Shown: positions 61,978-64,000 of the stretch, in pieces
How the letters are laid out: the number at the start of each line of letters is the position of its first letter
Numbering within the stretch: position 1 is the first letter of the stretch
Assembly (NCBI GenBank): GCA_003166025.1
Contig: PMWT01000066.1
Location: 12,524-76,523 of the forward strand
Origin: Acidimicrobiaceae bacterium
GTDB taxonomy: Bacteria; Actinomycetota; Acidimicrobiia; Acidimicrobiales; Palsa-688
Direction: 5' to 3'
Length of the DNA: 64,000 nucleotides
Program-made: the position numbers and the translations under genes
The notes under the pieces: generated by a model
What the model saw: the letters and a program-made list of their open reading frames with translations, nothing else
The model's database searches: none
Told to the model about the DNA's origin: nothing

Positions 61978-62601
61978 TTATTCGAGGGGACCGGGGTAAG
62001 CGGCTTCGGCTTTGTCGGCCAGGGCGTTGACCTGTTTTCGCACCACCACGACCAGGGCCACGACCACGGCTATGGCCACGGCGCCGACGACGATATCGAT
62101 CGTCCCCGACGCTTTTTTCAGTGTGTTGGCTGCATTATATGAAAGAGCCGTATAAACGGCAGCCCATATGACGGCGCCGGCAGCGCTGGCCACAGTGAAC
62201 CTCTTCCACTCCATATGCACGGTGCCGGCGAGGAAGGAAATATAGGTGCGCAAAACCGAAACAAAACGCCCGAAGAAGACCACCTTTCCACCCTGGCGGT
62301 CGAGCACGTACCTTCCCACTTTGAGCTTGCGCTCGTCCAGGCGGACCTTGCTCCCATAACGGCGGGCCAGGGCGAAGCCGCCCTTCATACCTATAAGGTA
62401 GCCGGCGACGTTCCCCGCCACAGCCGAAACCGCTGCCACCGCGAATATGGCCCACGGGTTTAGATGGTGCGTGTGGCCGGCATAGGCCCCCGCGGCTATA
62501 AGGGCCGTCTCGCCCGGGATCGGGACCCCGAGGCTCTCGGCGGCGATGAACGCGAAGATGGCCCAGTAGCCGTAGGAGCTGATCAGATGAGAGGTGCTCA
62601 T
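61978..62601 (-). CDS. DedA family membrane protein
   Basis: The 207-aa protein has the DedA features ESLGVPIPGETALIAAGAYA, GNVAGYLIGMKGGFALARRY and FFGRFVSVLRTYISFLAGTV with four to five hydrophobic segments. Members are thought to act as proton-dependent lipid or small-molecule transporters, some flipping undecaprenyl phosphate. It diverges from the purN-purH frame with 65 bp between. Confidence 0.9.
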   Translation of the reverse strand: MSTSHLISSYGYWAIFAFIAAESLGVPIPGETALIAAGAYAGHTHHLNPWAIFAVAAVSAVAGNVAGYLIGMKGGFALARRYGSKVRLDERKLKVGRYVLDRQGGKVVFFGRFVSVLRTYISFLAGTVHMEWKRFTVASAAGAVIWAAVYTALSYNAANTLKKASGTIDIVVGAVAIAVVVALVVVVRKQVNALADKAEAAYPGPLE

Positions 62602-62666
62602 TGCCGGGCTGGGAGCCTACTCTTCAGCTACCGGTCAACGCGGGTGGGACGAGTACTGTCGTGGGC

Positions 62667-64000
62667 ATGGGCAGCCCGGGCCGTGGCGGCGAGGTGCGCC
62701 TGGGAGTGCTGGCCTCGGGTAGCGGGACGGTCCTGGAGGCCATGCTGAGCGCCGGTACCGACGTCTGCGTGGTCCTGGCTGATCGCCGCTGCCGGGCACT
62801 TCAGGTGGCGGCGGAGGCGGGAGTGCCCGCCGAACTGCTGCTCCGCGGGGAGTACGGGAAAGACTTCGACCGCGCCGCTTATACCCGGCAGCTGGTCAAA
62901 GTGCTCGAAGGCTACGGGGTGGACGTGGTGGCGATGGCCGGCTTCGGCACCATCTTCAGTCCCGAGATCTTCGCCGCCTTCCCGGGACGCGTCCTCAACA
63001 CCCATCCGGCCCTCCTTCCCGCGTTCAAGGGCTGGCACGCCGTGCGGGACGCGCTGGCCGCGGGCGTGACCGTAACCGGTACGACCGTCCACCTGGCAAC
63101 CGAGCGAGTGGACGACGGGCCTGTCCTGGCCCAGCAGGAGGTCCCTGTCCTTCCCGGCGACACAGAGCAGACCCTTCACGAGAGGATCAAGGCCGTTGAG
63201 CGCCGGCTCTACCCCCAAACCATCGAGCGCTTCCTGGCCCAGCTCCGACAGAGCCAGGTGAGGCCGGTGACGACAACAGGAGGCACTGGTGTGAAGGCAC
63301 TGCTTTCGGTTTACGACAAGACCGGGCTGGAGGATTTCGCCGCCGCGCTGGTGGCCTCCGGGTACGGGCTGGTGGCCAGCGGGAAGACGGCGGCTGCTCT
63401 CGAAGCAGCCGGCTTGCCTCACGAGACCGTCGAAGCGGTGACGGATTGGCCGGAAATGCTGGGCGGCCGGGTGAAAACCCTCCACCCTCGCCTCCACGCG
63501 GGCATCCTGGCGGACCTGGACGACCCCAGGCACCGCGACGACCTGGCTCGGCACGGCATCGACCCGATCGGCCTGGTCGTGTGCAACCTGTACCCGTTCC
63601 GCTCCCAGCCTTCGGTCGAAATGATCGACATAGGCGGGGTCACGCTTTTGCGGGCTGCGGCCAAGAACTGGGCTCGCGTCGCGGTCGTCGTGGACCCCGC
63701 CGACTACGCCTTGGTGACGGGGAAGGTGCACGAGGGCGGACAAGCCCTCGACGATGACCTCAGGCTATACCTGGCCCGCAAAGCCTTTGCCCACACGGCG
63801 GCATATGACGCCAGCATCGTCAGCTGGCTCGACGATGTCGCGGGCGCGGCTGCGAGCGCGGGGCCGCCGGCGGAAAACGTCGGGGCCGACGGGCACCAAC
63901 GTCGGCTGCCACCGACCCTGCACCTGTCCCTCGAGCTCGCTCAGCCGCTGCGCTACGGCGAGAACCCCCACCAGTCCGGCGCCCGTTACCGCAACACGGG
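62667..64000 (+). CDS. purN-purH: PurN-PurH single reading frame, 3' end beyond window
   Basis: The frame from ATG 62667 (or GTG 62661) was read codon by codon to base 64000 with no stop. Residues 1-~195 are phosphoribosylglycinamide formyltransferase (VLASGSGTVLEAML; NTHPALLPAFKGWHAV; Asp in TERVDDGPVLAQ). After a ~13-residue linker (VRPVTTTGGTG), residue 209 starts PurH: the IMP cyclohydrolase domain (LLSVYDKTGLEDFAAALVAS, GGRVKTLHPRLHAGIL) and the start of the AICAR transformylase domain (LRYGENPHQSGARYRN). The ORF track misses it because it is open at the window end. The two enzymes catalyse steps 3 and 9-10 of purine synthesis and share 10-formyl-THF. An internal SD lies before GTG 63291. 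Confidence 0.93.
   Translation, partial: MGSPGRGGEVRLGVLASGSGTVLEAMLSAGTDVCVVLADRRCRALQVAAEAGVPAELLLRGEYGKDFDRAAYTRQLVKVLEGYGVDVVAMAGFGTIFSPEIFAAFPGRVLNTHPALLPAFKGWHAVRDALAAGVTVTGTTVHLATERVDDGPVLAQQEVPVLPGDTEQTLHERIKAVERRLYPQTIERFLAQLRQSQVRPVTTTGGTGVKALLSVYDKTGLEDFAAALVASGYGLVASGKTAAALEAAGLPHETVEAVTDWPEMLGGRVKTLHPRLHAGILADLDDPRHRDDLARHGIDPIGLVVCNLYPFRSQPSVEMIDIGGVTLLRAAAKNWARVAVVVDPADYALVTGKVHEGGQALDDDLRLYLARKAFAHTAAYDASIVSWLDDVAGAAASAGPPAENVGADGHQRRLPPTLHLSLELAQPLRYGENPHQSGARYRNT
63278..63293 (+). promoter_or_regulatory. Internal Shine-Dalgarno and GTG start for PurH
   Basis: AGGAGG (63278-63283), a 7-nt spacer and GTG (63291-63293) sit exactly at the PurH domain start inside the purN-purH frame. 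It could yield free PurH in addition to the fusion. Whether it is used is unknown. Confidence 0.6.

Follow-up and report, generated by a model that had tools for sequence, protein, structure and literature searches.

The purine genes purN and purH usually encode separate proteins. In an uncultured Acidimicrobiaceae bacterium they form a single fused gene, which raises the questions of whether the fusion is real, how it arose, and whether PurH is still made on its own.

A single gene for PurN and PurH

The fused open reading frame starts at position 62667 on the plus strand of the window, the 64,000-nucleotide stretch that was analyzed (C120:12524-76523), which comes from a 5.33-Mb MAG in 248 contigs (92% complete, 6.6% contamination). 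Translation of 62667-64000 is stop-free in frame 0 to the window end; the +1 frame has a TGA at 63292, and in the +2 frame stops fall at 63197 and 63755. Read on past the window, the frame first meets a stop at C120:77377-77379 (window position 64854), with a complete PurH. The uninterrupted frame reported in a sequence-only reading of the window is thus confirmed, and the downstream PurH stop to which it pointed is located. The fused protein has 729 amino acids and a predicted mass of 76.9 kDa, and free PurH from an internal start would have 54.9 kDa, in agreement with the approximately 75 and 55 kDa proposed earlier. A genome-wide search found this gene to be the sole copy of both purN and purH. 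Other matches, considered as possible second free copies, are at most 37% identical and cover part of PurN only; they look like related formyltransferases.

The PurN domain (GAR transformylase) covers residues 11-193 (62697-63245, plus strand; PF00551, TIGR00639 and alignment). TIGR00639 scores 174.1 bits (cut-off 150.1) over model positions 2-188 of 192. Within the window, PurH (63294-64000, plus strand; PF02142, PF01808 and NF002049) comprises the MGS/IMP cyclohydrolase (IMPCH) domain and the start of AICAR transformylase (AICARFT), the remainder lying beyond the window end. The bifunctional PurH model NF002049 scores 600.7 bits (cut-off 402) over positions 7-510 of 510, and a second PurH equivalog, TIGR00355, is narrowly missed, by 3.5 bits (524.5, cut-off 528). 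With Pfam, the formyl transferase domain is placed at residues 14-186, MGS at 221-331 and AICARFT/IMPCHase at 331-662. The catalytic Asn-x-His and Asp of PurN (N111, H113 and D149) are invariant in 11/11 aligned fused proteins, the role of His108 and Asp144 having been described for E. coli PurN (PMC3261824), and the KHANPCG motif of PurH is present. By its domains and motifs, the fusion is a complete PurN plus a complete bifunctional PurH, with predicted GAR transformylase activity.

Between the two lies a linker (63258-63290, plus strand), predicted to be disordered at residues 198-207 (AlphaFold2 pLDDT <50, and alignment). The AlphaFold2 model, built from 11 sequences only, has folded domains on either side of this segment (mean pLDDT 77.6, pTM 0.46). 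Linker length and sequence vary among fused relatives, and the model is consistent with a simple tether. The fusion of G137 (L093), from another family of the order, has a linker of roughly 80 residues, much above that of the other fusions.

Distribution of the fusion

That purN and purH are normally separate neighbors, as had been stated, is true of most relatives, in which the two often overlap by 4 nt (ATGA or GTGA). In a sample of 32 genomes from the family, the fusion is found in 3/3 genomes of the same genus, 3/3 of genus g3, and G029; the family's other genomes with both genes readable on one stretch have them separate. The whole fused protein is 67-84% identical to its fused relatives, the nearest named one found being that of Acidimicrobiaceae MAG fen_671 (L033, 84%). 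Among 397 genomes of the order there are at least three further fusions, in three other families: G042 and G078, with no internal stop, and G137. All fusion counts are lower bounds. At the level of the phylum, 397 drawn genomes gave no further fusion above a cut-off that admitted only 36 of them. The Chloroflexi MAG CF_16 (L054) also carries a PurN-PurH fusion. Long open frames in G117, G193 and G298 were rejected as fusions, the genes being separate, and in the stretch of G135 with a long open frame only PurH was recognized.

In each fused genome checked, the fusion is the sole purN and purH, with the exception of CF_16. A second, separate PurH of CF_16 (G778:C2:19761-21308) is 44% identical to the query; it may be truly redundant or have entered through contamination of the bin. 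In the related genus g4 (L097, that is G005:C32:86000-100000; L098:5195-6301; L115; L116) no full-length purH was found; purN directly adjoins folD, and an AICARFT-only PurH paralog is located elsewhere. An archaeal-type PurO match (PF07826, over cut-off) is present in two of the three g4 genomes, and was not found in G005. From these matches, g4 looks like a case of PurH replaced by AICARFT plus PurO in bacteria.

A conserved internal start site for PurH

A Shine-Dalgarno (SD) sequence, AGGAGG (63278-63283, plus strand), lies within the fused gene, 7 nt upstream of a GTG (63291-63293, plus strand) that is codon 209 of the fusion and the start of PurH, as the sequence-only reading had it. At this point each of the family's seven fused genes has a 6-nt SD (AGGAGG or AAGGAG), 6-7 nt spacing and ATG or GTG. 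As an internal control, a 6-nt SD is found 5-9 nt before only 6/531 other in-frame NTG codons of the fused genes. In separate pairs of the same family such an SD-start is present in 8/19, versus 7/7 in the fused genes (Fisher p 0.010, a test that ignores relatedness, the seven genes representing few independent lineages). Overlapping genes can use termination-reinitiation (PMC10666635). The smaller share in separate pairs fits with this, as overlapped genes may reinitiate and a fused gene must initiate independently.

Four-fold site identity is 35-42% between fused genera, 39-55% among g1 species and 48-81% among the g3 species compared. Thus, the fused genera are near saturation at these sites (35-48% identical when their more distant species are included), which argues that the internal site has been kept by selection and is not a leftover of recency. 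The strength of an SD is a weak predictor of its use. The dual output of fusion and free PurH that had been proposed is well supported by conservation of the site at this synonymous distance, and the cell probably makes both. No SD-start was found at the PurH boundary in the fusions of G042, G078, G137 and CF_16. Free PurH is therefore no general need, and outside the family the fused polypeptide alone can suffice for both functions.

Origin of the fusion

In 35/75 separate pairs examined, the stop of PurN and the start of PurH share bases in an ATGA or GTGA. In this overlap PurN is offset from the PurH frame, so that loss of the stop cannot fuse the two, and an indel in the PurN tail is needed. 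In the fused genes of the family PurH still begins with NTGA, whose TGA is not in frame with PurN. Here it is the GTGA whose +1-frame TGA (63292-63294, plus strand; frame check and relatives) corresponds to the PurN end in the commonest separate layout. A fourth-base A is enriched at bacterial starts generally (PMC5850271), so the GTGA alone is not proof of an old stop.

In a PurN plus PurH tree of 56 rows, the fused rows need six changes, five of them forced by well-supported branches, and the separate-gene sister genus g16 sits inside the fused clade. In one g16 genome (G025) PurN is in frame with PurH except for one TAG, and in another (G017) a TGA is out of frame. Stop loss may therefore have been the step that fused the genes in this clade, or a reversal may have come later. 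The recent fusion by stop loss suggested earlier is unsupported: four-fold sites are near saturation, relatives 67-84% identical share the fusion, and the ATGA overlap calls for an indel.

Gene context and known systems

The genes folD and metF follow downstream, giving the operon purN-purH, folD, metF. FolD is on the route to 10-formyl-THF, which is used by both PurN and PurH. The coupling through 10-formyl-THF put forward in the sequence-only reading is plausible and agrees with these neighbors. No promoter or terminator came up when 62550-63400 was scanned for both. On the minus strand (61978-62601), divergently from purN, lies a gene for a multi-pass membrane protein of 207 aa that by eye resembles DedA, and about 65 bp are left for both promoters between the two genes, with no sigma-70-type match.

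Animal GART has the order GARS-AIRS-GART, that is PurD-PurM-PurN. Like the gene described here, this trifunctional protein is a purine-pathway multi-enzyme fusion with PurN, but the fusion partners are different (PMC10912719). The closer precedent is haloarchaeal, where PurN is fused to PurH1 (PMC3261824), the Halobacterium salinarum fusion OE1620R being named PurNH (PMC3579733). Both types join PurN to an AICAR transformylase using the same 10-formyl-THF donor. However, the haloarchaeal partner is PurH1 (AICARFT) only, with PurO for IMP cyclohydrolase, whereas here there is the whole bacterial PurH, with the IMPCH (MGS) domain at residues 221-331 setting it apart from the haloarchaeal type, and an internal purH start. 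Compared with bacterial PurH (NF002049/TIGR00355; Mycobacterium tuberculosis 3zzm/4a1o), the full-length domains and conserved motifs are the same, but a PurN is added at the N-terminus. The commonest layout of unfused relatives is that of ATGA-overlap pairs with termination-reinitiation (PMC10666635); here, in contrast, PurN and PurH share one frame, and translation does not terminate between the two. For bacterial PurN-PurH fusions the open-access literature yielded only the haloarchaeal case, an absence that is weak evidence.

Explanations of the locus

The locus is likely to be a conserved fusion gene heading a folate/purine operon, giving a trifunctional protein plus free PurH from an active internal site. 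Translation from 62667 would give a 77-kDa protein with GAR transformylase, AICAR transformylase and IMP cyclohydrolase activities and a short flexible linker, and a free 55-kDa PurH would come from the ribosome-binding site of purH, which was taken over from the time of separate genes and would still be active. PurH would then exceed PurN, and free PurH could dimerize with itself or with the fusion. Use of the internal site, mixing of dimers and any gain from proximity are thus predicted parts of this explanation. The sequence-only reading is upheld in part: the real fusion of usual neighbors and the internal SD and GTG are borne out and dual output is supported, and its recent stop loss is the part given up.

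An obligate fusion, in which only the 77-kDa protein is made and the internal SD-GTG is a relic of the time when purH was a gene of its own, would agree with G042, G078, G137 and CF_16, which lack the boundary SD-start and in the first three of which the fusion is the sole copy. It is nevertheless unlikely, as a relic would not be expected to keep a 6-nt SD at a fixed distance in 7/7 genes at near-saturated synonymous divergence. A stronger, if still tentative, rival is near-neutral toggling of the frame, in which an indel-prone PurN tail alternates between fused and ATGA states with little effect, and PurH is self-initiated in both states. Dual output would agree with this rival too; what sets it apart from the preferred explanation is that it allows the fusion no benefit. 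The interleaving of fused and separate states (at least five changes in 56 rows), the position of g16 within the fused clade and the varying linker lengths are in its favor; however, all sampled members of two genera are fused, and other families, without an internal start, are reliant on the fusion. That a sequencing or assembly error deleted the PurN stop, as might be feared of a MAG in 248 contigs, can be dismissed: the same fusion is seen in independent genomes of the genus, in another genus and in other families, and its uninterrupted presence in six further members of the family excludes chance, mis-assembly and the miscalled base or indel named earlier as what could undo it. In its fuller form, the preferred explanation, which the evidence somewhat favors, has a full fusion and a selected internal site yielding a trifunctional enzyme and free PurH at a set ratio, with several origins, mostly by frame changes at ATGA overlaps, and some lineages without the free product.

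One gene pair is thus found in a natural series, namely separate, ATGA-overlapped, fused with an internal start, and fused without one, which is useful for testing how operon neighbors turn into multidomain enzymes. The two enzymes of purine synthesis that use 10-formyl-THF are joined here in Bacteria, the prior coupling being that of Haloarchaea with an AICARFT-only partner.
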